A stretch of DNA of 64,000 bases from Sphingorhabdus rigui. Its GTDB lineage: Bacteria > Pseudomonadota > Alphaproteobacteria > Sphingomonadales > Sphingomonadaceae. The stretch is taken from the NCBI RefSeq assembly GCF_014196595.1, contig NZ_JACIEA010000001.1, positions 932,845 through 996,844 of the forward strand. Reading direction: 5' to 3'. Positions within the stretch are counted from its first letter, which is position 1. Each line of letters starts with the position of its first letter. Under the pieces are notes generated by a model. The model had not been told where the DNA came from, did no database searches, and saw only the letters and a list, made by a program, of their open reading frames with translations. This document shows positions 43,445 through 59,106 of the stretch, one piece after another. A program made the translations under genes and the position numbers.

Positions 43445-45046
43445 TTACGCTGCGTTGCTGAACTGGTTCATGGTGTTGTCTTTACCACCGGCCTTAAGCG
43501 CGGCTTCACCAGCGAAATATTCCTTATGTTCGTCGCCAATGTCGGAACCCGACATATTCTGGTGCTTAACACAGGCGATACCTTGGCGGATTTCCTTGCG
43601 CTGAACGCCGGCAACATAGCCAAGCATACCCATTTCGCCGAAATAATCCTTCGCCAGATTGTCCGTGCTCAATGCCGCGGTGTGATATGTTGGCAAGGTG
43701 ATTAGGTGGTGGAAAATGCCCGCACGCTTGGCAGAATCGCGCTGGAAATTCTGGATCCACATGTCGGCTTGGGCGCCCAATTCGGTTTCGTCATATGACG
43801 CGCTCATCAGGTTTGCGCGGTCGTAAGCCGACACGTCCTTACCTTCTGCAGCCCAGGCGTCGAACACTTGCTGACGGAAATTGAGCGTCCAGTTGAAGCT
43901 TGGCGAGTTGTTATACGCCAATTTGGCGTTGGGAACGACTTCGCGGATACGGTCGACCATGCCGGCAATCTGTTCGATGTGCGGCTTTTCGGTTTCGATC
44001 CAGATAAGGTCAGCGCCGTTCTGCAGTGATGTGATGCAATCCAGCACGCAGCGGTCTTCGCCTGTGCCTGAACGGAACTGGAAAAGGTTCGAAGGCAAAC
44101 GCTTTGGCTTCAAAAGCTTCCCATTGCGGTTCAGGATGACATCGCCATTCTGCGCTGTGCTCGGGTCGATTTCTTCGCAGTCGAGGAAGCTGTTGTACAA
44201 GTCGCCAAGGTCGCCAGCTTCTTTCGATACCGCGATCTGCTTGGTAAGGCCTGCACCCAAGGAGTCCGTGCGCGCAACGATGATGCCTTCAGGAACGCCC
44301 AGTTCGAGGAACGCGTAGCGGCAGGCCCGAATTTTTTGCAGAAAATCTTCGTGCGGGACGGTAACCTTGCCATCTTGGTGGCCACATTGTTTTTCGTCCG
44401 AAACCTGATTTTCGATCTGCAAGGCGCATGCACCCGCTTCGATCATCTTCTTGGCCAGAAGATAGGTCGCCTCGGCATTGCCGAAACCTGCGTCAATGTC
44501 CGCGATGATCGGCACGACGTGGGTTTCATGATTTTCGATTTTGGCAAGCGCCTGCGCTTCCTTGGCCGCATCATTAGCTGCGCGTGCGTCATCAAGGTCC
44601 TTGAACAGAAGGTTGAGCTCACGGCTGTCTGCCTGACGCAGGAATGTGTAGAGTTCGCCGATCAGGGCAGGGACGCTCGTCTTTTCATGCATCGATTGGT
44701 CGGGCAATGGGCCGAACTCGCTGCGTAGGGCCGCAATCATCCAGCCCGACAGATAAAGATAACGCTTTTTGGTTGTGCCGAAATGCTTCTTGATCGAAAT
44801 CATCTTCTGCTGGGCAATGAACCCGTGCCAGCAACCGAGCGACTGCGTATACTGCGCAGGGTCTGCATCATAAGCCGCCATGTCTTCGCGCATAATTTTT
44901 GCGGTGTAGCGCGCAATGTCGAGGCCCGTCTGAAAACGGTTTTGCAACTGCATACGCGCCACGGACTCTGCGCTAATCGAGTCCCAAGTGCCATTGTTCG
45001 CGGCTATGTGCGTGCTGTTTTCAGCAATGAGCGACTGGTACGACAT
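43445..45046 (-). CDS. aceA: Isocitrate lyase (long form)
   Basis: Glyoxylate shunt: splits isocitrate to glyoxylate and succinate. The 533 residues are the longer type, about 100 more than the E. coli enzyme and like that of Pseudomonas. The catalytic Cys is in QCGHQDGK, after IIADIDAGFGNAEATYLLAKKMIEAGA (metal-binding Asp) and IENQVSDEK; LAYNNSPSFNW is another core motif. GAAGGA precedes the ATG. It is divergent from the ScfR-type regulator with 149 bases between. Confidence 0.96.
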   Translation of the reverse strand: MSYQSLIAENSTHIAANNGTWDSISAESVARMQLQNRFQTGLDIARYTAKIMREDMAAYDADPAQYTQSLGCWHGFIAQQKMISIKKHFGTTKKRYLYLSGWMIAALRSEFGPLPDQSMHEKTSVPALIGELYTFLRQADSRELNLLFKDLDDARAANDAAKEAQALAKIENHETHVVPIIADIDAGFGNAEATYLLAKKMIEAGACALQIENQVSDEKQCGHQDGKVTVPHEDFLQKIRACRYAFLELGVPEGIIVARTDSLGAGLTKQIAVSKEAGDLGDLYNSFLDCEEIDPSTAQNGDVILNRNGKLLKPKRLPSNLFQFRSGTGEDRCVLDCITSLQNGADLIWIETEKPHIEQIAGMVDRIREVVPNAKLAYNNSPSFNWTLNFRQQVFDAWAAEGKDVSAYDRANLMSASYDETELGAQADMWIQNFQRDSAKRAGIFHHLITLPTYHTAALSTDNLAKDYFGEMGMLGYVAGVQRKEIRQGIACVKHQNMSGSDIGDEHKEYFAGEAALKAGGKDNTMNQFSNAA

Positions 45047-45186
45047 TTACAATTCCTTCGGTAACCTGATTTATGCTGCAGTTATGCGGTTGTAATGGTC
45101 AAAGGACGAGTCAATTTTGTAATATTTGTTGTGTTATGGTGCGGATAATCTAAGGTTTAATTGTAAATCTGTAATATAACTTACAA
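45047..45186. promoter_or_regulatory. TTGTAA hexamer cluster in the aceA-regulator intergenic region
   Basis: TTGTAA or its complement TTACAA occurs five times: 45047-45052, 45090-45095, 45117-45122, 45161-45166 and 45181-45186. The last two form a dyad (TTGTAA-N14-TTACAA) just before the regulator start. These are candidate binding sites for the adjacent regulator, which in the RamB/ScfR family commonly controls its own gene and glyoxylate-cycle genes. Confidence 0.5.
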
Positions 45187-45195
45187 GGCACTGCC

Positions 45196-46611
45196 ATGAG
45201 TGAACAAAAGCTATTTGCCGGTCATGCCGTCCGCAGAATCCGTCGCGCAAACGGACTGACACAAGGGGCTATGGCTGATGCGCTCGCGATATCGGCGTCT
45301 TACCTAAACCTGATTGAGCGCAACCAGCGGCCACTCACGGCCACCTTGTTGCTGAAACTCGCGCAGTCATATGACTTCGACCCACGCACACTGACTGGCA
45401 CAACCCCCGGCGGCGGCGTTGAGGCCATTCGCCGCCGGTTGAGCGATCCCATGTTTGCCGATTTGTCCGTCGACCGAACACAGGTGGAAGAATGGATTGC
45501 CGCCAGCCCTGACGCAGCCGAAGCGTTTGCCCGCGCGTTTGACCGCTTGTCGGGCGGTTCGCATGGCGCGGCGGGCACATTGCAAGGCGGCGCAAGCATT
45601 GAACCTGAATCCATCGCATCGGCGCGGCGCGAGATAGAACGCTGGCGCAACCATTTTGCAGATTTGGATTCGCAAGCTGAAAATCTCGCGGATGAGCTGC
45701 GTCTTAATAATGCGGACCTGTATGGCGCGATTACTGAACGGCTGCGCGTGAAGCATCAGTTGTCGATACGGATATTGCCGTTCGATGTAATGCCTGACCG
45801 ATTGCGCCGGTTGGACCTCCATGCCCGGCAATTGCAGTTGTCGGAGCTATTGGATCCGGCAAGCCGCACATTCGCCGCCGCCTTGCAACTTGGTATGTTG
45901 GAGGCAAAGGCGGAGGTTGAGGCGCTCGTTTCCGGCGCCTCATTCACCGAACGGGCAGGGGAACGTCTCTACCGACGCCATTTGCACAGCTATTTCGCGG
46001 CAGCCGTCATGATGCCTTACGCCCGCTTCCTGCGCGCCTGCGAAGCGACTGGCTATGATCTTATCTTGCTGCAACGCCGGTTTGGGGCGGGTTTTGAACA
46101 CGTTGTGCACCGCCTAACGACTTTGCAGCGGGTGGGGCAGCGCGGGTTGCCATTTTTCATGCTGCGGATTGATCGGGCCGGGCAGAGCAGTAAGCGTTAT
46201 GCAGGGGCGAGTGCATCACCGTTGGTGGAGACGGACCGTCGGTGTCCCTTGTGGCACGTGCACAATGTTTTTGCACGACCGGGCACGCTGTTGCCGCATC
46301 TGGTTGAGCTGGAGGACAAAAGCCGCTGGTTCACGCTGTCGCGCACGGTGCACCCACAAACGGCTGTGAGTGGCGGCGTTGAAGCTGAATTCGCCATTTG
46401 TTTGGGTATCGATGCCAAGCTGGCGGCACCCTTGGCCGCGGCGCGGGGCTGGGATTTAGGGGACGCGGCAGCGACGCCGATCGGATTGGGCTGTCCTGCG
46501 TGCACGCGATCGGACTGCCCGCAACGCAGCGCGCCGCCCGCGGGACGCGTGCTTGTTTTCAACGAGCGCGAGCGCGGGTTGTCGCCATTTGCCTTTGATC
46601 AACAGGCATAA
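45196..46611 (+). CDS. ScfR/RamB-family XRE transcriptional regulator
   Basis: A 471-residue regulator of short-chain acyl or glyoxylate metabolism. Domains: N-terminal XRE helix-turn-helix (8-65, VRRIRRANGLTQGAMADALAISASYLNLIERNQRPL), a central IrrE/DUF955-like region (about 165-330) and the C-terminal DUF2083 domain with GLGCPACTRSDCPQR near 440. In other bacteria such proteins (RamB, PrpC/MccR types) sense acyl-CoA or acetate status and control isocitrate lyase. Its divergence from aceA supports that role here. AAGG precedes the ATG by seven bases. Confidence 0.92.
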   Translation: MSEQKLFAGHAVRRIRRANGLTQGAMADALAISASYLNLIERNQRPLTATLLLKLAQSYDFDPRTLTGTTPGGGVEAIRRRLSDPMFADLSVDRTQVEEWIAASPDAAEAFARAFDRLSGGSHGAAGTLQGGASIEPESIASARREIERWRNHFADLDSQAENLADELRLNNADLYGAITERLRVKHQLSIRILPFDVMPDRLRRLDLHARQLQLSELLDPASRTFAAALQLGMLEAKAEVEALVSGASFTERAGERLYRRHLHSYFAAAVMMPYARFLRACEATGYDLILLQRRFGAGFEHVVHRLTTLQRVGQRGLPFFMLRIDRAGQSSKRYAGASASPLVETDRRCPLWHVHNVFARPGTLLPHLVELEDKSRWFTLSRTVHPQTAVSGGVEAEFAICLGIDAKLAAPLAAARGWDLGDAAATPIGLGCPACTRSDCPQRSAPPAGRVLVFNERERGLSPFAFDQQA

Positions 46612-46614
46612 CCA

Positions 46615-47292
46615 TTAAGGCCGGTCGAAAACATAGCCTGCCGACCGAACCGTACGGATAGGGTCTGGACTGCCAACCTGGACAAAGGCTTTGCGCAGGC
46701 GACCAACCCATACGTTCACAGTTTTATCGTCAACTATGTCGCCATCTTTGCCGAGAACTCGAATGAGGTGCTGGCGTGAAAAAACGCGATCGGGATTAGC
46801 TGCAAAATGGGCCAATAAGCGAAATTCTGTCGGTCCAAGAGGCAGGGATTGGCCGTTATATTGGGCTCTAAAGGTCGCTGTGTCGACGATCAGCCGTCCA
46901 TGAATATATTTGTGGAGGTCGTGGCCTGCGTTTCGCGCAGACAACTGAAGCGCAAGCCTGCGGCTTAGCGTTTTAGCGTCGAACGGCCCAATGATATAAT
47001 CGTCTGCGCCGGCGTCCAGCGCGCGCCGCTGGCTGGTTTCGTCTGCATGTTCCAGGACAAGCGTCGTATGACATTGCTGGCCAACGTCGGTGGCTTTTAA
47101 CTGGCGGCAAAACTCTAGACCGGACTTGTCAGGAAGAATCCAATCAACAAAGCAGAGAATGTTTTGCGTTTCGGGCAGAGATATAATGTCGGACGATCCG
47201 GTCAAAAACCGAACGTCTGGGTACTCTGCGGTCATGTCAGCTATCAGTTCCGCATCGCCGCCTGCGATTAATACATAAATATCGTCGTTCAT
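46615..47292 (-). CDS. OmpR/PhoB-family response regulator with degenerate receiver
   Basis: A 225-residue regulator (ATG at 47292, GGTGG six bases upstream; 47298 is an alternative). The C-terminal winged helix is normal (LGPTEFRLLAHFAANPDRVFSR, VDDKTVNVWVGRLRKAF, IRTVRSAGYVF). The receiver is not. The phospho-acceptor site has an Asp (VDWILPDKSG, D50), but the acidic pair is replaced by Gly-Gly (G11, G12), the invariant Lys by Gly (G102 in IIGPF), and the Thr/Ser at the switch by Glu81. Phosphorylation by a standard kinase is doubtful. No kinase gene adjoins it. It is divergent from a TonB receptor gene and ends three bases from the ScfR gene. Confidence 0.9.
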   Translation of the reverse strand: MNDDIYVLIAGGDAELIADMTAEYPDVRFLTGSSDIISLPETQNILCFVDWILPDKSGLEFCRQLKATDVGQQCHTTLVLEHADETSQRRALDAGADDYIIGPFDAKTLSRRLALQLSARNAGHDLHKYIHGRLIVDTATFRAQYNGQSLPLGPTEFRLLAHFAANPDRVFSRQHLIRVLGKDGDIVDDKTVNVWVGRLRKAFVQVGSPDPIRTVRSAGYVFDRP

Positions 47293-47354
47293 GTTCATCC
47301 ACCCGGTTCTGCGGATGAGATGCAGATAGCTAATGACAAGTTCGTGACCGTTAT

Positions 47355-47407
47355 GCGTCACTTTGGTGTCGACTTTTTTCTGTAACGTTGGCGTCACCAA
47401 AGTGTCG
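47355..47407. promoter_or_regulatory. Two 17-bp sites GCGTCAC-N4-GTGTCG, 36 bases apart
   Basis: Copies at 47355-47371 and 47391-47407 have identical outer 7 and 6 bases; the four-base centres are TTTG and CAAA. Together they also make a perfect 10-bp inverted repeat (47359-47368 and 47395-47404). A further GTGTCG follows at 47413. The sites lie between the divergent regulator and TonB receptor genes, so they are candidate operators for that regulator. Confidence 0.55.
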
Positions 47408-47522
47408 GTGAAGTGTCGCGGGGGTGCAACTCACGACGTCTAGCGACCTCCTTGCAAATGCACCCGGGGCGAATCGAAATGAATTCAAGCGTCCCGACAA
47501 CGATTAGCAACAGGGATTTATT

Positions 47523-49888
47523 ATGAAGCGCACCGTCTCTCTCCATCTGGTTTCGTTGGCTGCGATCGCCGCTTTCCAGACCACTACGCCCGTATTCGCG
47601 GCGGTCGATGACGCTACCCGGCAGGACAATTCCGGCCTGGTCGACATTGTGGTAACGGCGACGAAGCGTGAAACCAATCTACAGGACACGCCGATTGCTA
47701 TCGCGGTCATGAGCGACGAAGATTTGAAGAAGCGCCAGGTACAAAGCTTGTTGGATCTCGCAGATGGCGGAATACCATCGCTGCGCGTGGCGACATTTGA
47801 ATCACGTCAAACAGCGCTAACAGTCGGCATGCGGGGTATTGTTCCCGGTGACGCCAATCAACCCGCCCGCGAACAAGGCGTAGGCGTCTATATTGACGGT
47901 GTGTATTTGGGGCGCCAGCATGGTCTGAACGCTGGCTTTTGGATGTACAGCGCATTGAGGTTCTGAAAGGTCCGCAAGGAACCTTGTTTGGACGCAATAC
48001 CGAAGGTGGCGCAGTTAACATTGTCACGCGCGCTCCAACTGGTGAGTTCGGTGGTCGTGCGTCCGCCGGTATGGGCAATTTCGGTGCATATAGCGGCCAG
48101 ATACGTATCGATCTTCCTGAAGTCGCTGGTTTCGCGTTCAAAATTGACGCCGGTCTGCAACATCAGGATGCAACGACCAAAAACCCATTGGAGGGACAAG
48201 TCGGGTGGAATTATTTCCATCGCTATGGCGGTCGGATAGCGGCACGGTGGGAACCGACGAACACGATTACAGCCGATTTTTCGGCCGATCTCGGTCGCGA
48301 TCAAAACACCGCATTTCTTAGCCAGCTGATCAATTATAATCCCACCAATCGCCCCATTGCGACGCTTGCGCAGATTGTAGCCAACAGCAACCGCCTTCCT
48401 TCGGGCTTTGTTGCGCCGCTTCCTTCGTTGTTGAAGGTGCAACCTGACCGCGTTAGCACCGCTGACATCGGCGTGCCGCAACAGCCCAGCGTGGGCAAAA
48501 CCTTCGGCGTTGTCAGCAACATCAAATGGCGGCCGTTTGACGGTATCGAAATTCGCTCGATTACAGCATGGCGCACCGTCAGCGACCGTCAGTTTGATAA
48601 TTCCGGCGGTGCTAACCGGACTCCGACATTCCTTCCGAATGCCACGTTCAGCCGCTATAGCCTTGCGACGTTAGACCAACGTCAGTTCAGCCAGGAAATA
48701 CAAGCTGTCGGTAATACCGATACCGTCGATTATGTTCTGGGCCTCTATTATTTCAATGAACGGGCCAACGACACTGCCCGTACCCCGAATACGAACCGTT
48801 GGAATGCCGACGGAACAGCGTTCAGCATTGTTGATCCGGCGACCTATCCACTTGCGGTTACAGCACGTGCGAGCATCGCATTTGCCAAAAGCTACGCCAT
48901 ATATGGGCAGGCTACCTACACGCCCGAACAATTGGAAAGCTTGCATGTGACGGTCGGTGGTCGCATTACGCGTGATGACAAGAACGGACAGTTGTTCACG
49001 GTAAATGGTGCATCCACCAACTTCACCTTCGACCAACGCAATACGCGTATTGATCCGTTGGTGACAGTCGCTTGGGATGCCTCAGATGCCGTCAATCTAT
49101 ACGCAAAATATGCGACGGGTTACCGTGCGGGTGGCGCAAGTTCACGTTCTTTGAACTACCGCGCATTCGGCCCTGAGTCCGTAAAGTCTTATGAAATTGG
49201 CGCAAAAACCGAATTGTTTGATCGCCTCGTCCGATTGAATCTTGCCGGTTATATCATGGACCGGACCGACAGTCAGGTCGATTTCAACTTCTTCATTCCG
49301 CAAACCAATGGGACAGTCCGCAACACGCTGGAAACCGTAAATGCGGAAGGCGTAACCAAGATTAAGGGTATTGAGGCGGACTTGACCGTCAGGCCCACCG
49401 ACAGCCTGTCTTTCGGTGTATCTTATGCGTACACCGACGTGAAGATTCCACCCGCACGCAATACCGTGCAGGAACAGCTTAACGCGTCGCTGACACCCGC
49501 GGTGACTACGCCAGTGTTTCAGGACGTCTATGTCGTATATACACCCAAGCACGCTGTATCAGGGTCGATTGACTTTGAAACACCAGTGGGCGGAGCAGGC
49601 GCAGCGGCAAAGCTTCACTTGGACGCCAACTACAGCTCGCCATCCTTCACGTTCGATAATGAAAACGTCAAAAATGAAAAAGCGTTTCTTATGAACGGCC
49701 GGCTGTCACTTGCAGACATTCCAATGTCCGGAAATGGCCAGCTGTTAACGGTCGCTTTATGGGCGCGTAACATGTTTAATGAATCGCATATCTATCGTCG
49801 TTCAAATGCAAATGGTCCGGTTCTGGGCGATTATGCGAACTTCAATGCGCCGCGCACGATAGGCGTTGAAGCTACCGTCAACTTCTAA
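47523..49888 (+). pseudogene. TonB-dependent receptor, interrupted by a one-base frameshift
   Basis: Two consecutive frames form one receptor of about 788 residues. The first (47523 to 47966) has a signal peptide (SLAAIAAFQTTTPVFA), TonB box VDIVVTATKRE and plug to VYIDGVYLGRQHGLNAG. The second resumes at about 47939 with LDVQRIEVLKGPQGTLFGRN, then plug, barrel and C-terminal Phe. A single base is missing near GGCTTTTGG (47934-47942). With one more base the plug reads through without a gap. Either the gene is newly inactive or the assembly has an error. The substrate is unknown. It faces the degenerate-receiver regulator. Confidence 0.85.
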
Positions 49889-49907
49889 GGGTACGTCCCC
49901 CAAGACT

Positions 49908-49942
49908 AAGGGGTGCTGCAGCAATGCCGCACCCTTTTTTTT
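49908..49942 (+). terminator. Rho-independent terminator after the frameshifted receptor gene
   Basis: GGGTGC (49911-49916) pairs with GCACCC (49929-49934), with inner GC/GC pairing, followed by eight T residues. It begins about 20 bases after the stop codon. Confidence 0.85.
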
Positions 49943-50017: not shown

Positions 50018-50245
50018 ATGATACGGCTTTTTAGGCATTACATACCTTATGGGGTGCTTTTTCTGGCACTTATCGACCTAGTTCTTCTCGTTGCCGCGGC
50101 AGAAACCGCATGGGCTATGCACGCGCATCAGATCGGGATGCAAGTCGGCCATATCGTAGATTATGTTGAGAAGCTTGGCACAAGCGAAGTCGTGCTCGCG
50201 TTGGTAGATCGACGAAATGCATTGTGGCTGGATGGTGCACGGTAA
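50018..50245 (+). pseudogene. Relic of an XrtA/PEP-CTERM system glycosyltransferase (TIGR03013-like)
   Basis: A 75-residue frame. Its first 45 residues (RLFRHYIPYGVLFLALIDLVLL and HAHQIGM) match the start of the exosortase-associated sugar transferase that normally precedes prsK. They are followed directly by VDYVEKLGTSEVVLALVDRRNAL, a segment that in the intact enzyme lies roughly 200 residues further on, and the frame ends soon after. I read this as an internal deletion plus loss of the catalytic half. It stops at the base before prsK starts. Whether the short product is made is unknown. Confidence 0.65.
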
Positions 50246-52339
50246 ATGATTGCGCTGCTTTCATCGGTATCATTATGGGGTCATTTGACGGCGGGCTTCG
50301 CATACACTGCGCTCGCGATTTGGTTGATTCACCAATATTCGGTTAAAAACCGTGCCCAAGCGCACTTGATATGCGCCATGGCGCTGACCGCTATGTGGGC
50401 ATATGTGGCAACGTTCGTCGGGCCATTCAGTCTACCGGCGCAAATGGCAGAAACCGCGCGCAATCTGGCGTGGCTTGGCTTCATGTTTTATCTACTGCGC
50501 AGTAGCGACGGTCAGCAGCAGCCGCGCACAATCAACATGATTTATGCTGCGCTCTTATTTGTATTAATCTCGCAGCCGATTTTTGATGCTTTGGCCGGGG
50601 GCCTCGTTATCGGAAGCCAAGGGGCGGCATATGCGATGCAATCCGCCATATTGATGCGTATGATTTTCGGCGCCGGTGCGCTGGTCTTGGTCCACAACCT
50701 GTATTCGGTATCTGCACCCGGAACGCGTTCGGGCATGAGCCTACCTATGGCTGCTTTGGCGGCGATGTGGACGTTTGATCTCAATCTTTACACGATCAGC
50801 TATTTGACATCCGAAATCTCGGCGGAGCTTGTGTCAGCGCGCGGTTTAGCATCGGCGTTGTTGGCACCGATATTCGTGATAGCCACGCTGCGTAACAGTG
50901 ACTGGCGCCTCCAACTGTCGCGCACGGTCGCATTTCATTCCGCGTCTCTGCTTGCCATTGGCGCATATTTGATAGCGATGGTTGTCCTTGCGTCAGCCAT
51001 CGAAATAATCGGCGGTACATATGCTGGCCTTGCCCAACTGACCTTGATATTTGGCATGTCGATTTCGGCGCTGTTGATCCTGCCCTCGGGGCGCTTCAAG
51101 GCATGGCTGAACGTCATTATCGTGAAAAATTTTTTCCAGCATCGTTATGATTATCGGTCGGAATGGATGCGCTTTGCAGACACCATTGGTTTCCCGTCGC
51201 ACGATGCAGCGCCATTTTATGAACGAGTCATCAAATCGCTGGCCGATATCTTTGACAGCCCGGGCGGGCTCATATTTGTGCCCAACGATGAAGGGCGGCT
51301 AACGCTGCAAGCGCGATGGAACTGGTCAACAGCGCAGATCCCCGCAAGCTGTGTAACGTCTCAGACGATGCCCTTTTTTGAATCGACTGGGTATATCTTG
51401 GCAATGGATGATGTGCGGGCGGGAAAAGACGTTCGCTGTGACCCTCGGGCCGTGCCGCAATGGCTATATGACGAGGATCGCGCATGGGCGGTCGTCCCTC
51501 TCGTGCATTTCGGAAAGCTTGCTGGCCTTGCTGTGTTATCGCGGCCACGCCTTCCGCGTGCTCTCGATTGGGAAGATCTGGATATGCTGCGGGTTGTTGG
51601 GCGGCAGCTGGCCAGCTATCTGGCCGAGGCGGCAAGCCAGCAAGCGCTTGCGGAAAATCGTCAATTCGAACAATTCAACCGGCGCTTTGCGTTCGTGATG
51701 CATGACATCAAAAATCTGGTGAGCCAGTTAAGCATATTGGCGCGCAATGCTGAAAAGCATGCGGATAAGCCGGAATTTCAAGCGGACATGGTCGACACAT
51801 TACGATCTTCGGTCGACAAGATGAATGAGTTATTGGCGCGACTTTCCCAGCACAACAAAACCAAACATAATCCGCCCATCGCCGTTGATATTGGTGAGAC
51901 GGTTATGAATGCGGTGCACAACACCCGGCTTGTTTATCCGGTCGAGGTGCAGCTTGCGCGCGGGTTATTCGTATTAGCTGATCCATCGCGTGTTGAAACT
52001 ATCATTGGCCATCTCGTGCAAAACGCGATTGAGGCGACACCCGACGGAGCGCCTGTAAAAATCACATGCAGAGCGCAGGGCAACCAAGCGGCGGTGAACA
52101 TAATCGACACAGGTATAGGGATGTCCGAAAGCTTCATTGCCGACCAGCTGTTCAAACCGTTTGAGTCCACTAAAAAAAGTGGTTTTGGCATTGGCGCTTA
52201 CGAGGCCCGCGCCTTGGCGCTGTCCATGGGCGGCAATCTGCGGGTGAACAGCAGACCGGGCAAGGGCACAGTCTTCACGCTGCTGTTGCCCTCGGTCATC
52301 GCACATAGCGACAGCGCCTCACACCAGGAACCAGCATAA
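50246..52339 (+). CDS. prsK: XrtA/PEP-CTERM system histidine kinase PrsK
   Basis: A 697-residue membrane sensor kinase. About nine membrane segments (10-290) precede a GAF-like domain (about 310-450). The phospho-acceptor His486 lies in VMHDIKNLVSQLSIL. The ATPase part has LVQNAIEATPDGAP (N box), IDTGIGMSESFI (G1) and KKSGFGIGAYEARALALSMGG (G2). The kinase start follows the relic's stop without a gap, and prsR starts immediately after its TAA. In other bacteria PrsK/PrsR controls PEP-CTERM protein and exopolysaccharide genes. The exosortase itself is not in the window. Confidence 0.9.
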   Translation: MIALLSSVSLWGHLTAGFAYTALAIWLIHQYSVKNRAQAHLICAMALTAMWAYVATFVGPFSLPAQMAETARNLAWLGFMFYLLRSSDGQQQPRTINMIYAALLFVLISQPIFDALAGGLVIGSQGAAYAMQSAILMRMIFGAGALVLVHNLYSVSAPGTRSGMSLPMAALAAMWTFDLNLYTISYLTSEISAELVSARGLASALLAPIFVIATLRNSDWRLQLSRTVAFHSASLLAIGAYLIAMVVLASAIEIIGGTYAGLAQLTLIFGMSISALLILPSGRFKAWLNVIIVKNFFQHRYDYRSEWMRFADTIGFPSHDAAPFYERVIKSLADIFDSPGGLIFVPNDEGRLTLQARWNWSTAQIPASCVTSQTMPFFESTGYILAMDDVRAGKDVRCDPRAVPQWLYDEDRAWAVVPLVHFGKLAGLAVLSRPRLPRALDWEDLDMLRVVGRQLASYLAEAASQQALAENRQFEQFNRRFAFVMHDIKNLVSQLSILARNAEKHADKPEFQADMVDTLRSSVDKMNELLARLSQHNKTKHNPPIAVDIGETVMNAVHNTRLVYPVEVQLARGLFVLADPSRVETIIGHLVQNAIEATPDGAPVKITCRAQGNQAAVNIIDTGIGMSESFIADQLFKPFESTKKSGFGIGAYEARALALSMGGNLRVNSRPGKGTVFTLLLPSVIAHSDSASHQEPA

Positions 52340-53701
52340 ATGACCGAACACCGGCAAAAGCTACTCATTGTGGAAGATGACCTTGGTCTTCAGAAGCAGC
52401 TCAAATGGTCGTATGAAGGGTTTGACGTCTTTTGCGCGTCCAATCGCGAAGACGCGCTGACCTTACTGCGTGCGGAAGAGCCTGATGTGGTCACGCTAGA
52501 CCTCGGACTGCCGCCTGATCCCGATGGCGTTACCGAAGGCTTCGCCGCCCTCGACGAAATGTTGAAACTGAAGCCTGATACGAAAATCATTGTCGCCTCG
52601 GGACATGGCGCACGCGAGAGCGCGCTGCAGGCTATTTCGGCTGGTGCTTGGGATTTTTATCATAAGCCCTTGGATATTGACGAGCTTCACCTGATCGTTC
52701 GGCGGGCATTTCATGTGCGTGAGCTGGAGGTGCAGAACGCATTGTTGCAGCAACCCGATAGCGACGGTGCGTTGTTGCTGGGAACAATACTCACAGCATC
52801 GCCGGAGATGGTGAAGGTCGCACGTACCATAGAGCGGATAGCCCCAGCCGATATCTCGGTTTTGCTGCTGGGTGCCAGCGGCACGGGAAAGGAATTGCTG
52901 GCGCGCGGTTTGCACAATGCCAGCGGTCGGCGCGATAAGCCATTCGTCGCCATAAATTGTGGCGCAATACCTGATAATTTGCTGGAATCCGAATTGTTCG
53001 GGCATGAAAAAGGTGCGTTTACCGGCGCTGTTAAAACGACCGAGGGCAAGATTGAGCTGGCACATGGCGGAACGCTCTTTTTGGATGAAGTGGGCGACAT
53101 CCCGTTAGCGCTGCAGGTAAAACTGCTTCGTTTTCTTCAGGAGCGCAATATTGAGCGTATTGGAGGCCGCAAAGCTATTCCCATTGATGTCCGTGTGGTC
53201 TGTGCCACACATCGCAATCTCAGCGAGATGATATCGGATCAAACTTTCCGCGATGATTTGTTTTACAGATTGGCGGAAGTCACCATCAATATTCCACCGC
53301 TTACCGCGCGCACGGGGGACGCAATTTTGTTGGCCAAGCATTTCGTAAGCAAATTTGCGCGCGAGATGAACCCGACGATTAAAGGCATGTCGACCGGCGC
53401 ATTAGCCGCGATTGATGTTTGGAAGTGGCCGGGAAATGTCCGCGAACTTGAAAACCGCATAAAGCGGGCTGTTATCATGGCAGAGGGAAAATTCGTTACG
53501 GCGGATGACCTCGACTTTAGCGACGGGGATGAAGACGATCTGTTGCTCAACTTGAAGGCTGCGCGCGAGGCATCTGACCGCAAGGCGATTAAAAGGGCTG
53601 TTGCGCGGACAGAAGGCAATATTTCTAGCGCAGCGAAGTTACTGGGGATTAGCCGTCCGACGCTGTACGATCTGTTGAAGCAGTATGATCTGCATGTGTA
53701 G
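52340..53701 (+). CDS. prsR: Sigma-54-dependent response regulator PrsR
   Basis: Partner of PrsK, 453 residues. Receiver domain 1-125 with VEDD and phospho-acceptor D54 in VTLDLGLPP and Lys in HKPLD. The AAA+ domain (about 145-385) has Walker A GASGTGKELLARG, the sigma-54 contact loop GAFTGA (about 225-230), Walker B GGTLFLDEVGDIP, and the arginine finger region. A Fis-type HTH (ISSAAKLLGISRPTLYDLLKQY) ends the protein. It should activate RpoN promoters in the PrsK pathway. All active residues look intact. Confidence 0.93.
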   Translation: MTEHRQKLLIVEDDLGLQKQLKWSYEGFDVFCASNREDALTLLRAEEPDVVTLDLGLPPDPDGVTEGFAALDEMLKLKPDTKIIVASGHGARESALQAISAGAWDFYHKPLDIDELHLIVRRAFHVRELEVQNALLQQPDSDGALLLGTILTASPEMVKVARTIERIAPADISVLLLGASGTGKELLARGLHNASGRRDKPFVAINCGAIPDNLLESELFGHEKGAFTGAVKTTEGKIELAHGGTLFLDEVGDIPLALQVKLLRFLQERNIERIGGRKAIPIDVRVVCATHRNLSEMISDQTFRDDLFYRLAEVTINIPPLTARTGDAILLAKHFVSKFAREMNPTIKGMSTGALAAIDVWKWPGNVRELENRIKRAVIMAEGKFVTADDLDFSDGDEDDLLLNLKAAREASDRKAIKRAVARTEGNISSAAKLLGISRPTLYDLLKQYDLHV

Positions 53702-53737: not shown

Positions 53738-54079
53738 TCAGCTAAGCGCCAGTAATTCGGCCGGATCGATACCGGCACGCTGCATTTGGGCTTTTACGTC
53801 AGGCCAAATATTGTGCATGAAATTGTCGCGCTCGAAACTGCGAAGCTTCGAAATCGCACCATTCGCAACAAACAAACCGACACCGCGCTTGACGTCCACG
53901 AGCCCGCTGTCCTGAAAAAGCTGATAGGCTTTAGCGACCGTCAACGGGTTTGCGCCTTGGTCAGCAGCAAATGCGCGAACCGAAGGCAACATGTCGCCTT
54001 CCTTATACGCACCGTCCAAAATGGCGGCGGCAATCACATCGCGCAATTTCAAATATACGGGTTTAACGTCGTTTTTCAT
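53738..54079 (-). CDS. GntR-family regulator, YtrA subfamily
   Basis: A short 113-residue regulator with an N-terminal winged helix (PVYLKLRDVIAAAILDGAYKEGDMLPSVRAFAADQGANPLTVAKAYQLFQDSGLVDVKRGVGLFV) and a brief C-terminal tail without a ligand domain, as in YtrA-type GntR proteins, which often control adjacent ABC transporters (none here). A dyad TACTG-N8-CAGTA lies nine bases before its start and may be an autoregulatory operator. It converges on prsR, 36 bases apart. Confidence 0.88.
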   Translation of the reverse strand: MKNDVKPVYLKLRDVIAAAILDGAYKEGDMLPSVRAFAADQGANPLTVAKAYQLFQDSGLVDVKRGVGLFVANGAISKLRSFERDNFMHNIWPDVKAQMQRAGIDPAELLALS

Positions 54080-54087
54080 TACGTGCT

Positions 54088-54105
54088 TACTGCCATAATA
54101 CAGTA
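54088..54105. promoter_or_regulatory. Operator candidate of the GntR gene
   Basis: TACTG (54088-54092) and CAGTA (54101-54105) with eight bases between. The site is nine bases upstream of the GntR-family start, a place where repressor binding would block transcription or initiation. Confidence 0.45.
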
Positions 54106-54126
54106 GGTCGCGTCAAGGCAGCACTT

Positions 54127-54696
54127 TTACGGCCATTGCCGAATGATATGCGACGGGTCGGGGCGTGGCCGCTCTTCAAGAGGCAGGGCCGGCGACCCCA
54201 TGAAGAATAGCCCGGCAATTTGTTCGTCGCCGGTGCAAATCGCTTTGCGCACGCTGTCGTCGTAGGTCGCCCATCCGGTAATCCAGCTTCCGACAAAGCC
54301 ATGTGCGTGGGCTGCATGCAGCAGGTTCATGCCGACTGCGCCAACGCTAAGTTGCTGTTCCCATGAAGGAATTTTTGCGCTTGGCTGGGGCGCATATATC
54401 AACAGAACCAACGTTGGAGCCATGCGCGATGGTGATACCGCCGCGCCAATTTGCGCAGGCCGTGCATCGGGATTGGCAGCGGTGAAGGCATGGGTGAGGA
54501 GTTCAGCAAAGGCGCTGCGGTCGGTGATCGCGACAAAACGCCACGGAAATAGCTTGCCATGGTCGGGGGTGCGCATAGCGGTCTGCAATATGCGGTTAAG
54601 TGTGGCTTGGTCGGGGCCGGGGTCCACCATATCGCGTGGTTTGCCGGACCGGCGGGTTTCGAGATAGCGCGTTACGGAGGAGAGGTCGTTGAACAT
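54127..54696 (-). CDS. Nitroreductase family protein (YdjA-like)
   Basis: FMN-dependent NAD(P)H oxidoreductase of about 189 residues from the ATG at 54696 (GGGAG four bases upstream). The longer frame starts at 54732. RYLETRRSGKPRDMVDPGP at the N-terminus carries FMN-phosphate-binding Arg residues; TPDHGKLFPWRFVAI and the C-terminal FVGSWITGWATYDD, GDEQIAGLFFMGSP follow the YdjA-type layout. The substrate is not predictable. Confidence 0.88.
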   Translation of the reverse strand: MFNDLSSVTRYLETRRSGKPRDMVDPGPDQATLNRILQTAMRTPDHGKLFPWRFVAITDRSAFAELLTHAFTAANPDARPAQIGAAVSPSRMAPTLVLLIYAPQPSAKIPSWEQQLSVGAVGMNLLHAAHAHGFVGSWITGWATYDDSVRKAICTGDEQIAGLFFMGSPALPLEERPRPDPSHIIRQWP

Positions 54697-54829
54697 TCTA
54701 CTCCCATCGACGAATTTTGACGGTATCCGCAATTAAATTCTTCACACGCGCAATTTTTTCGGTAGGTTCGCCGCCAATCGTTCCTTTCAATGGAATATCA
54801 AACATAACAGAAATGAGGGGTTTCGCTCG

Positions 54830-56362
54830 ATGGCGACATCATATGCGCAAGATGGAGATGCAGCAGGGACATTCCTTGGCCATCCCAAAGGTCTTTTCGT
54901 TCTATTCTTTGCCGAAATGTGGGAGCGCTTTTCCTATTATGGAATGCGCGCACTGCTGATTTTTTATCTGACAAAGCATTGGCTTTTTTCAGATGAAAAA
55001 TCGGGTGTCATTTATGGCGCTTACACGGCGTTGGTATATATCACGCCGGTACTTGGCGGCTATTTGGCGGACCGATGGCTCGGACAACGAAAGGCGGTAA
55101 CCTATGGCGCTGTATTGTTGACCTTTGGGCATCTGCTCATGGGCTTTGAAGGCACGGGCGGACAGGATGCTGCCTCGTTGAACATCTTCTGGCTCGCGTT
55201 GGCGTTCATTATCGTGGGATCGGGCTTTTTGAAGGCCAATATTTCCGTGATTGTCGGGCAACTCTACCCACGCACCGACGTGCGCCGCGACGGTGCATAT
55301 ACCATTTTCTACATGGGCATTAACTTGGGCGCCGCGCTCGGTTCACTATTGTGCGGCTATTTGGGCGAAACCTATGGCTGGTCTTATGGCTTCGGCGCAG
55401 CGGGCGTTGGCATGCTTCTCGGTCTGGTTGTCTTTATCGTCTTTAAACCTTTGTTGCTTGGCCGTGGTGAACCTTCCAACCCGGACGCTTTGGCAAAGCC
55501 TGTCATGGGCATTAAATTTGAATGGCTGTTATATGTTGTTGGCTTGGTGGCTGTGGTCATTTGCTGGTGGCTTGTACAAAATCAGGCTGTCGTTGGAACG
55601 TTGCTCGGCATCGCCGGTGCCACTCTGGTTGCTTATGTTTTGTGGACCGCCGTTCGTAAACTTGAACCCCATGACCGTGACCGCATTTTCGCGGCGATGT
55701 TCCTGATTATTGGTTCGATCCTGTTCTGGGCCTTGTTTGAACAAGCTGGATCGTCGCTTAATCTGTTTACGGACCGCCATGTCGATCGTGCAGGTGTTCC
55801 CGCATCAGTGTTCCAGTCGTTGAACGCCATTTACATCGTCCTGCTTGCGCCGCTGTTTGCGTGGCTTTGGACGGCGCTTGGCCGCAAGGGACTTGAACCT
55901 TCTGCACCGGCGAAGTTCGGTCTGGGCATTGTGCAACTCGGAATTGGTTTCCTCGTTCTGGTCGCAGGTTCTGCAGCCGCGGGCGCGGACAGCATGGTTC
56001 CTGTGTTGTTCATTTTCCTGATCTACCTGTTCCACACAACCGGCGAATTGTGCCTGTCGCCCGTGGGGCTTAGCGCCATGAACCGCCTCGCGCCTGCGCA
56101 TCTTGCGTCGTTGATCATGGGAACATGGTTCTTCGCATCGGCTACCGGTAACTTCGCAGCGGGCCTCATCGCCTCTGCAACGGGTTCGGAAGCTGCATCG
56201 GGTGAAGGTGCTGGCCGCGAAGTCGTCATGGCTGTGTATAGCCAAATCGGCTGGATCGCGATTGGCGTCGGTGTTGCGGTTGTCGTAATTTCGCCGCTTA
56301 TCAAGAAACTGATGCACCTCGACACCTTGCGTGATGACGGGCATCTTGAAGGTCAGGCATAA
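54830..56362 (+). CDS. Proton-dependent oligopeptide transporter (POT family)
   Basis: A 510-residue major-facilitator-type peptide:proton symporter with about 14 membrane segments. The hallmark ExxERFxYYG appears as EMWERFSYYGMRALL (about residues 28-42), followed by GGYLADRWLGQRKAV. FFYMGINLGAALGSLLCGYLGETYGW is represented by YMGINLGAALGSL. A large cytoplasmic loop lies mid-protein. GAGGGG precedes the ATG by nine bases. It lies 51 bases upstream of two amidohydrolase genes of unknown substrate. Confidence 0.94.
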   Translation: MATSYAQDGDAAGTFLGHPKGLFVLFFAEMWERFSYYGMRALLIFYLTKHWLFSDEKSGVIYGAYTALVYITPVLGGYLADRWLGQRKAVTYGAVLLTFGHLLMGFEGTGGQDAASLNIFWLALAFIIVGSGFLKANISVIVGQLYPRTDVRRDGAYTIFYMGINLGAALGSLLCGYLGETYGWSYGFGAAGVGMLLGLVVFIVFKPLLLGRGEPSNPDALAKPVMGIKFEWLLYVVGLVAVVICWWLVQNQAVVGTLLGIAGATLVAYVLWTAVRKLEPHDRDRIFAAMFLIIGSILFWALFEQAGSSLNLFTDRHVDRAGVPASVFQSLNAIYIVLLAPLFAWLWTALGRKGLEPSAPAKFGLGIVQLGIGFLVLVAGSAAAGADSMVPVLFIFLIYLFHTTGELCLSPVGLSAMNRLAPAHLASLIMGTWFFASATGNFAAGLIASATGSEAASGEGAGREVVMAVYSQIGWIAIGVGVAVVVISPLIKKLMHLDTLRDDGHLEGQA

Positions 56363-56413
56363 GCAGGCGAGGCTGCTGCCGCTGGCATTCGCCCCACAAA
56401 CTGGAGTTAAGTG

Positions 56414-57817
56414 ATGGCAAAGTTTAATGCATTGCGCAGCGCATATCTTGTGCTGCCGCTGGCTCTTATGGCCTGTTCAAACGCGGAAGGCCCAAAGACG
56501 GCTTCCGCTGCGCCTGTTGCAAATCCGGCGGAAAAGGCACCGGTGCCGTTCCCGTCGACATATAAGGCGTATCCCGGCGTTGCGACCGCCATCCGTAATG
56601 TCACCATTTACGATGGCGAAGGTGGCAAAATCGAAAATGGCGTTGTCTTCATTTCGGGCGGTAAGATTAGCAGCGTCGGCGGGCCGGACACTGTTATACC
56701 TTCGGGTACGGTTGTTGTGGACGGTGCAGGCAAGTTTGTAACACCAGGCATAATCGATATTCACTCGCACCTCGGCGATTATCCCACGCCATCGGTGGAA
56801 GCCCATAGCGACGGGAACGAAGCGACATCGCCGACTACCCCCGAAGTTTGGGCGGAACACAGCGTGTGGCCACAGGATCCGGGCTTTAGCCGCGCACTCA
56901 CCAATGGTGGCATAACCGCGCTTCAGATTTTGCCCGGCTCGGCTAACCTGATGGGTGGCCGATCTGTGGTGCTGAAAAATGTCTATGCGCGCACGGTGCA
57001 GGGCATGAAGTTCCCGGGTGCGCCGTACGGTATGAAAATGGCCTGCGGCGAAAATCCGAAGCGTGTGTATGGCAGCAAGGGGCGCATGCCTTCAACCCGC
57101 ATGGGCAACATCGCCGTCAATCGTCAGACATGGATTAAGGCGCAGGATTACAAGAAAAAGCGGGACAGCGGCAAGGAATATACCCGCGATCTCGGGCTTG
57201 AAACGCTTGCTGGTGTTCTGGATGGCGACATCTCGATCCAAAACCACTGCTATCGCGCGGACGAAATGGCGCTCGTTCTCGATATGGCGAAGGAATTTGG
57301 CTACAAAGTCTCGACATTCCACCACGCCGTTGAGAGTTACAAAATCGCTGATTTGTTGCGCGACAATGGCGTGTGTTCCGCCGTTTGGGCGGACTGGTGG
57401 GGTTTCAAGATGGAAGCCTATGACGCAATCCCTGAAAATGCCGCGATATTGCACAACACGGGCGCGTGCGTGATCATTCACTCGGATGATGAAAACCAGA
57501 TTCAGCGTTTGAACCAAGAGGCGGCAAAGGCGCAGGCCGATGGTCGCAGAATGGGCATCAATATCAGCGATGCTGAAGTCATTAAGTGGCTGACATATAA
57601 CCCAGCCAAGGCGCTTGGCATTTCGGACAACACCGGCAGTTTAAAGCCCGGTAAAATGGCCGATCTGGTGTTGTGGAATGGCAATCCGCTGAGCGTATAC
57701 GCGCGTCCAGACAAGGTCTGGATCGACGGCGCGTTGATGTTTGATGCAAGCAACCCCAAAATACGTCCGGTCAGCGACTTTGAGCTTGGCCAACCCGGTG
57801 AAGGAGATGTGAAATGA
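56414..57817 (+). CDS. Amidohydrolase family lipoprotein
   Basis: A metal-dependent hydrolase of 467 residues from the ATG at 56414 (GGAG seven bases upstream; GTG at 56411 is adjacent). The signal has lipobox LMAC. The metal site is visible: HxH in IDIHSHLGDYP, later His in FHHAVESYK, and Asp in IIHSDDENQ near the C-terminus; GLETLAGVLDGDISIQNHCYR also fits the imidazolonepropionase-like subfamily. It may act on peptides or cyclic amides in the periplasm, perhaps with the neighbouring peptide transporter; this is inference. It overlaps the next gene by four bases (ATGA). Confidence 0.87.
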   Translation: MAKFNALRSAYLVLPLALMACSNAEGPKTASAAPVANPAEKAPVPFPSTYKAYPGVATAIRNVTIYDGEGGKIENGVVFISGGKISSVGGPDTVIPSGTVVVDGAGKFVTPGIIDIHSHLGDYPTPSVEAHSDGNEATSPTTPEVWAEHSVWPQDPGFSRALTNGGITALQILPGSANLMGGRSVVLKNVYARTVQGMKFPGAPYGMKMACGENPKRVYGSKGRMPSTRMGNIAVNRQTWIKAQDYKKKRDSGKEYTRDLGLETLAGVLDGDISIQNHCYRADEMALVLDMAKEFGYKVSTFHHAVESYKIADLLRDNGVCSAVWADWWGFKMEAYDAIPENAAILHNTGACVIIHSDDENQIQRLNQEAAKAQADGRRMGINISDAEVIKWLTYNPAKALGISDNTGSLKPGKMADLVLWNGNPLSVYARPDKVWIDGALMFDASNPKIRPVSDFELGQPGEGDVK

Positions 57818-59106
57818 GGCATTTCCTCTATGCTGCTGCCGCGCTTGCGGCTTTTGCGACACCCGTTTCGGCTGAAACCATAGCCATTACCGGCGGCCGC
57901 GTCGTCATCGGCGATGGCAGTGCACCCATTGATGGCGGCACTGTGGTCGTGCGTGATGGCGTTGTCGTTGCTGCTGGTACCGGCGTTGCAGTTCCGTCGG
58001 GCGCACGTCGCATCGACGCTTCAGGCAAATGGGTAACCCCTGGCGTTTTCGCTGGCTTTACCCGTTTGGGCCTCGCTGAAGTCGATGCCGTTAACGGCAC
58101 GAACGACAAAAGTGGTGGTCGCAGCGGTTTTTCCGCAGCCATTGACGTTGCACCTGCAATTGATCCGTTCCGGTCGCCATTTGCGGTTAACCGTTCCGCC
58201 GGCGTAACGCGCGCAGTCGTGGCACCTGAAGGTGCTGCTTCTATTTTTGCAGGGCAGGGCGCCATTGCGGATCTGGGTGCGGACAGTAATCCGGTTACCA
58301 AGGCACGTGCGTTTCAGTTTGCCGAATTCGGTGAGGAGGGGGCGGATGCCGCTGGCGGAAGCCGTGCTGGAACGCATCTGCATTTCCGCGCGATGTTGCG
58401 CGAAGCGCAGGATTATGCCGCAGGGCGTGGTACCTTTGATGATGACTTGCTAAAGGCAGAAGACGCCAAGGCGTTGTTGTCTGTGCTTCGCGGCGAAACG
58501 CGTCTTTTGATCCATGTCGAAGGCGCAAATGATATGCTTCGGCTCATTGAGCTGAAACGCGACTTCCCATCGATCAAAATGGTATTTGTTGGTGTTAGCG
58601 AAGGATGGCGGGTGGCACCGCAACTGGCGCAAGCCCGTATTCCCGTTATCGCGTCGGCTTTGAACGATTTGCCAGCATCGTTTGAAATGCTGGGCGCCAC
58701 GCAGAGCAATATCGGTCGCATGAAAGATGCCGGTGTGCAGGTTGCCATCGGCATGATCAATGACCGGGATTCGCACCAATTGCGGTACACGACGCAATAT
58801 GCAGGCAATATCGTAAGCCTTGAGCGCGTGCCCGGTGCGACTGGCCTGACATGGGATGAGGCATTTGCAGCCATCAGCTCGGTTCCTGCAGATATCATGG
58901 GTGTTGGTGACCGTTTGGGTAGCCTCAAGGCCGGCAAAGCCGCTGACGTCGTTGTTTGGGATGGCGATCCGCTTGAGCTGTCCTCTGCGCCGACGACAGT
59001 GATCATCGACGGTGTCGAACAGCCATTGGGCAATCGCCAAAACCGACTGCGTGACCGCTATGCGCGGCCAACAGAAGGCAATTTGCCAAAGGCATATGAT
59101 CGTTGA
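57814..59106 (+). CDS. Second amidohydrolase-family protein, metal ligands missing
   Basis: A 430-residue exported protein (signal MRHFLYAAAALAAFATPVSA) with the amidohydrolase fold (ITGGRVVIGDGSAPIDGG at the start, GSLKAGKAADVVVWDGDPL at the end). Where the first enzyme has HxH, this one reads GFTRLG with Phe82 and Arg84. The C-terminal Asp region reads IGMINDRDSHQ. Metal binding is therefore doubtful. Its four-base overlap with the intact enzyme suggests it is a non-catalytic partner or a heterodimer subunit. Confidence 0.85.
   Translation: MRHFLYAAAALAAFATPVSAETIAITGGRVVIGDGSAPIDGGTVVVRDGVVVAAGTGVAVPSGARRIDASGKWVTPGVFAGFTRLGLAEVDAVNGTNDKSGGRSGFSAAIDVAPAIDPFRSPFAVNRSAGVTRAVVAPEGAASIFAGQGAIADLGADSNPVTKARAFQFAEFGEEGADAAGGSRAGTHLHFRAMLREAQDYAAGRGTFDDDLLKAEDAKALLSVLRGETRLLIHVEGANDMLRLIELKRDFPSIKMVFVGVSEGWRVAPQLAQARIPVIASALNDLPASFEMLGATQSNIGRMKDAGVQVAIGMINDRDSHQLRYTTQYAGNIVSLERVPGATGLTWDEAFAAISSVPADIMGVGDRLGSLKAGKAADVVVWDGDPLELSSAPTTVIIDGVEQPLGNRQNRLRDRYARPTEGNLPKAYDR

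Follow-up and report, generated by a model that had tools for sequence, protein, structure and literature searches.

Analysis of the region upstream of prsK confirmed that its 75-codon open reading frame is a pseudogene relic of a 462-codon epsB2 gene (TIGR03013, XrtA-associated polyprenyl sugar transferase), and the exosortase/PEP-CTERM system has been deleted from the genome, not moved. The explanation that we favour, and consider quite probable, is that epsB2 decayed as the system was lost and that PrsK-PrsR was retained for an XrtA-independent sigma-54 role outliving the system. Comparisons were made with L009 and L001, the nearest prsK loci in public genomes (~93% identical), in which a 462-codon glycosyltransferase gene occupies the relic's place. 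Orphan loci are those with prsK-prsR and no intact epsB2, and coordinates refer to the window, the whole 64-kb stretch of DNA analysed. The features of the locus are as follows.

45196..46611, forward strand: XRE/ScfR-type regulator (ScfRs domain, E = 2e-47), the conserved left neighbour, syntenic in relatives and orphan loci
46612..49941, no strand: segment inserted after the ScfR-family gene and ahead of the promoter element, absent from L009, where 217 bp separate the two flanks
46615-47400, reverse strand: response regulator, part of this ~3.3-kb segment
49958..49974, forward strand: operon promoter element TGTAAAATTAATCGACA (reverse complement TGTCGATTAATTTTACA), followed by CTTTACC to 49981
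50018..50155, forward strand: epsB2 relic piece 1, codons 1-46 (85% amino acid identity to L009 8612-8749; E = 3e-21 in tblastn of the 75-residue frame against the N-terminus of the L009 gene)
50153..50158, forward strand: junction left by in-frame deletion 1 of 444 bp, with a short shared TCG at the joint
50156..50224, forward strand: epsB2 relic piece 2, ~codons 195-217 (DYVEKLGTSEVVLALVDRRNAL), from nucleotide alignment and homologue comparison
50221..50233, forward strand: junction left by in-frame deletion 2 of 717 bp, whole catalytic domain removed
50225..50245, forward strand: epsB2 relic piece 3, the final 6 codons plus stop, within which the prsK translation start region lies
50246..52339, forward strand: prsK, histidine kinase (membrane sensor, GAF, HATPase), intact (TIGR02916, 550.1 bits, cut-off 300)
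52340..53701, forward strand: prsR, NtrC-type sigma-54 activator response regulator, intact (TIGR02915, 666.2 bits, cut-off 502.6)
53738..54079, reverse strand: small GntR regulator, the conserved right neighbour

The frame spans exactly 50018-50245 and encodes 75 amino acids. Nucleotide alignment with the intact L009 and L001 genes matched codons 1-46, ~195-217 and the last 6 with the stop, interrupted by gaps of 444 and 717 bp, respectively; homology to both loci resumes unambiguously at 49942. The three kept pieces lie in order, which indicates two deletions rather than one join. The first-pass annotation had described the frame as the N-terminus of TIGR03013 joined directly to a segment from further along. 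Alignment with the intact orthologues at the same locus bore out the identity and both of these parts, matching the two ends of full TIGR03013 genes upstream of prsK; the single direct join did not hold, an extra middle piece lying between two deletions. Both gaps are divisible by three, and the frame is open. The relic stop abuts the prsK ATG (TAAATG), a joint also found in L009 and L001. The short matches at the deletion joints point to illegitimate recombination of an ordinary kind.

The intact L009 protein scored 495 bits against TIGR03013 (cut-off 393), and its Bac_transf catalytic domain, residues 273-456, falls wholly inside the 717-bp deletion. The relic therefore has none of this domain, in agreement with the earlier view that the catalytic part was missing. 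The TIGR03013 HMM gave no match to the 75-residue frame at E ≤ 10, leaving it short of the curated cut-off of 393 bits, and the best NCBIfam match was a weak one to an unrelated family, Na+/H+ antiporter subunit E (E = 0.011). The identity of the relic was thus invisible to HMM scans alone, and alignment with orthologues was needed to reveal it.

The missing HMM match would suit an independent small-protein family, and a frame break in the neighbouring TonB receptor could hint at sequence errors and hence an assembly artefact. We consider either very improbable. An independent family, expected to fit the frame end to end, is refuted by the ordered match of three pieces to the orthologous gene in its orthologous position. 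Gaps of 444 and 717 bp are not made by indel errors, and separate losses of the exosortase and PEP-CTERM genes agree with the relic.

These losses were traced in the genome of the window, G000 (2.47 Mb, 8 contigs, rated 100% complete; the sister L009 genome has 3.1 Mb). A TIGR03013 match occurred nowhere in the 2.47 Mb. Exosortase (PF09721) was absent from it as well; PF09721 was found in G061 and G062, and the L009 and L001 genomes have exosortase. The same genome held no PEP-CTERM protein (TIGR02595), with one above cut-off in each of G061, G062/G025 and G022. RpoN (sigma-54) is intact in G000 (PF04552, 221.1 bits). In the L001 genome, fmt and an ada-like gene flank a cluster of asparagine synthase, exosortase, glycosyltransferase, deacetylase and chain-length genes. 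In G000 these flanks are joined at C2:~59128, with 12.86 kb of the exosortase/EPS cluster lost relative to the sister. Next to serS, where relatives have their single PEP-CTERM gene, a deletion of 963 bp has left 19 codons of it, and a second, separate one of 157 bp has taken away the promoter of the gene. An earlier suggestion that the system might be spread elsewhere in the genome is contradicted by the absence of exosortase, TIGR03013 and PEP-CTERM matches and by these deletion scars at syntenic sites. The scar on G000:C2, flanked by fmt (from 57351) and the ada-like gene (~59140), keeps only the last few asparagine synthase codons. The 19-codon PEP-CTERM remnant (MKKVRIMSVRMAFAKLCAC) lies in L208 (G000:C1:762000-770000) at ~767413-767470; the relatives' protein is Ser/Gly/Thr-rich.

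Among 36 congeners, prsK, epsB2 and exosortase occurred together in 19 and were all missing from the other 17, such that exosortase and epsB2 were present in 19/19 genomes with prsK and 0/17 without it. The genome analysed here is the only mixed case beside them, with regulators and neither epsB2 nor exosortase. The 17 genomes with none of the three are mostly small (1.8-2.4 Mb).

The losses were placed on the tip branch of the genome itself. This placement, together with the lack of prsK in the 17 congeners without exosortase, fits plain decay in progress, with prsK-prsR functionless now and merely not hit yet. We regard this as unlikely. The PrsK match to TIGR02916 spans model positions 1-679, and PrsR belongs to its family with receiver, sigma-54 AAA+ (GAFTGA) and Fis HTH domains all present. 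Key residues of both proteins are kept, as first noted: the H box, GFGIGA, Walker A, the TLDLGLP receiver stretch, GAFTGA and the Fis-type HTH. The nearest other models were those of the NtrC-family two-component systems AtoS-AtoC and ZraS-ZraR, which share the mechanism of sigma-54 activation; PrsK and PrsR scored far under the cut-offs of those families.

Substitutions were counted with the window and L009 taken as sisters, on the basis of synonymous distances. For prsK and prsR together, 124 synonymous and 38 nonsynonymous changes fell on the window branch, and 100 and 40, respectively, on the sister branch, where the system is still present. By likelihood, the relaxed fraction of the window branch was 0 for prsK-prsR (95% CI 0-0.027), as against 0.52 (CI 0.23-0.97), about half of the branch, for the N-terminal piece of the relic. 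Under plain decay, such a difference would not be expected. For the whole relic (9 synonymous, 10 nonsynonymous changes on the window branch) the relaxed fraction was 28%, with an interval of 0-0.64 that touches zero; the contrast is thus carried mainly by the N-terminal piece. The prsK-prsR pair, with no detectable relaxation, is under purifying selection.

The frame might alternatively have a function of its own, as a small membrane protein or as a leader peptide coupling translation to prsK. It is open after two in-frame deletions and still has the first transmembrane segment and the stop, with the prsK ATG abutting; in most relatives, too, the end of epsB2 and the start of prsK are no more than a few bases apart. 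Even so, the substitutions K6R, R35H, E211V and E212D alter sites that are 97-100% conserved in 77 homologues, those at K6 and R35, in piece 1, being invariant. With L001 and other relatives as outgroup, nonsynonymous and synonymous changes in the N-terminal piece numbered 8 and 4 on the window branch, against 0 and 3 on the sister branch. Moreover, three other orphan loci lack any such frame. A functional small protein or leader is accordingly improbable, though a leader role by position alone is conceivable.

These other loci emerged from a survey of 78 prsK loci with enough upstream sequence. In 75 of them, epsB2 lies directly upstream of prsK (L035 and L072, each with the full gene, included). 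The exceptions, L038, L039 and L057 (3/78), have the same neighbours (ScfR-type regulator, prsK, prsR) and no trace of epsB2 at the locus, and exosortase was undetected in their genomes (2.5 Mb each); their orphan status refers to the locus and the exosortase search. Scores also exceeded the cut-offs for PrsK (TIGR02916: L038, 517.9; L039, 511.1; L057, 488.4 bits) and PrsR (TIGR02915: 667.8, 668.4 and 672.4 bits, respectively). L057 belongs to the Erythrobacteraceae. On a PrsK+PrsR tree, well-supported branches oblige the four orphans, the window included, to have arisen by three separate changes; long branches make the deeper position of L038/L039 uncertain.

L038 and L039 are both orphan and stand at a synonymous distance of ~0.5-0.9. 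Between them, dN/dS was 0.02 for prsR (dS 0.82-0.84) and 0.08 for prsK (dS 0.54-0.57), values that fall among those of close intact pairs; for distant intact pairs dS is saturated, which inflates their median dN/dS, and that figure was set aside. Idle genes would not be so conserved over a dS of ~0.8, which argues further against plain decay. This constraint is the strongest evidence for a putative XrtA-independent function. The early idea that the regulatory arm had outlived its partner gene is hence supported, and the situation recurs in L038/L039 and L057. With regulator retention repeated in at least two other lineages, PrsK-PrsR probably has another job, and we infer from selection that the pair may have been put to another use.

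The promoter element is conserved as well. A strict form of the 17-nt element TGTAAAATTAAYCGACA is found upstream of epsB2 in 58/75 loci. The element also occurs upstream of prsK in the window, L038, L039 and L057, and is thus kept in all four orphans. The exact element is present in one copy each in G000, G061, G062 and G022, always upstream of epsB2 or the relic, and its motif class occurs once in the 64-kb window. In the sister and L001, the PEP-CTERM gene is preceded by a related element, TTCGGGACG(C/A)TTTAC(C/A). Motif 1, a predicted PrsR site, is 17 nt long with the 3′ end TTTACA (PMC1569441); the reverse complement of the operon element matches this verbal description, the comparison being with the description and not the logo. 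This match and the related element upstream of the PEP-CTERM gene make PrsR autoregulation plausible. No sigma-54 −24/−12 site was found next to the element, and a consensus scan of the window and the G025 and G022 stretches gave no convincing sigma-54 promoter near the system. A genome search with the 17-mer, allowing ≤3 mismatches, showed no notable excess: G000 had 9 near-matches, mostly in or at coding regions, versus 5 in a reversed-pattern control.

Taken together, the data are consistent with retention of PrsK-PrsR for an XrtA-independent role by the following route. The normal operon is epsB2-prsK-prsR, with epsB2 at the head. From this lineage the exosortase/EPS cluster has been lost, as have its single PEP-CTERM gene, together with the promoter of that gene, and the catalytic body of epsB2. 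The common feature of the deletions at the locus is that epsB2 is removed and the promoter and prsK start are spared; being in frame, and sparing the operon promoter, stop codon and prsK start region, they should leave prsK-prsR transcribable and translatable. Expression would continue from the old promoter, with PrsR binding the TGTCG-N6-TTTACA element. PrsK-PrsR, with the intact RpoN, would sense something and activate sigma-54 genes outside the XrtA system, alone or along with its own genes; purifying selection on the pair points to such continued sensing and activation. Against this explanation, two in-frame gaps have an expected chance of 1 in 9, and no XrtA-independent PrsR targets were found in G000, in which near-matches to the element were at about control level. 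Nor is retention the rule, since the 17 congeners lost prsK-prsR together with the system. A broader proposal, that PrsK-PrsR is more than the switch for the exosortase/PEP-CTERM system, that in several Sphingomonadales lineages it was freed from this system when epsB2 was deleted between promoter and regulators, and that it runs a separate sigma-54 regulon outweighing the EPS system, seems to us a little better than evenly balanced.

The gene neighbourhood and families resemble those of the epsB2-prsK-prsR locus of Aquincola tertiaricarbonis, where flocs no longer form once a transposon has hit epsB2 or prsK, and where RpoN is required for pepA, a PEP-CTERM gene (PMC9850573). In contrast to that locus, the window retains 75 codons of epsB2 as a relic, and neither an exosortase gene nor a PEP-CTERM gene is left for the pair to regulate. 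By model score, PrsK and PrsR are members of the PEP-CTERM/EpsH system with PrsK, PrsR and PrsT (Haft et al. 2006, PMC1569441), whose phylogenetic profile links both regulators to genomes with PEP-CTERM genes. Unlike in that profile, the regulators occur here without exosortase, and apparently do so in three further genomes. No description of exosortase-free PrsK-PrsR was found in the literature searched, which left most subscription papers outside. Beyond a relic and a surviving regulatory arm, the present comparison adds that the arm has been kept selectively, and more than once.

PrsK and PrsR were named from co-occurrence with PEP-CTERM genes. Genomes that keep prsK-prsR under selection after losing all known clients break the co-occurrence profile. 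Such orphan strains offer a clean background, in which any genes under PrsR control must lie outside its recognised role. In annotation, the presence of prsK-prsR alone should not imply an exosortase system.

Within the segment absent from L009, the TonB receptor (47523-49888, forward strand) has a frame break near 47945, with the Pfam Plug and barrel domains in different frames; it is either a pseudogene or a sequencing error. Around the locus a conserved frame (window 43445-46611 and 53738-59106) comprises isocitrate-lyase-like, ScfR-type fatty-acyl-CoA regulator, prsK, prsR, GntR, nitroreductase and peptide transporter genes. Its ScfR-prsK-prsR core is kept even in the Erythrobacteraceae locus L057.
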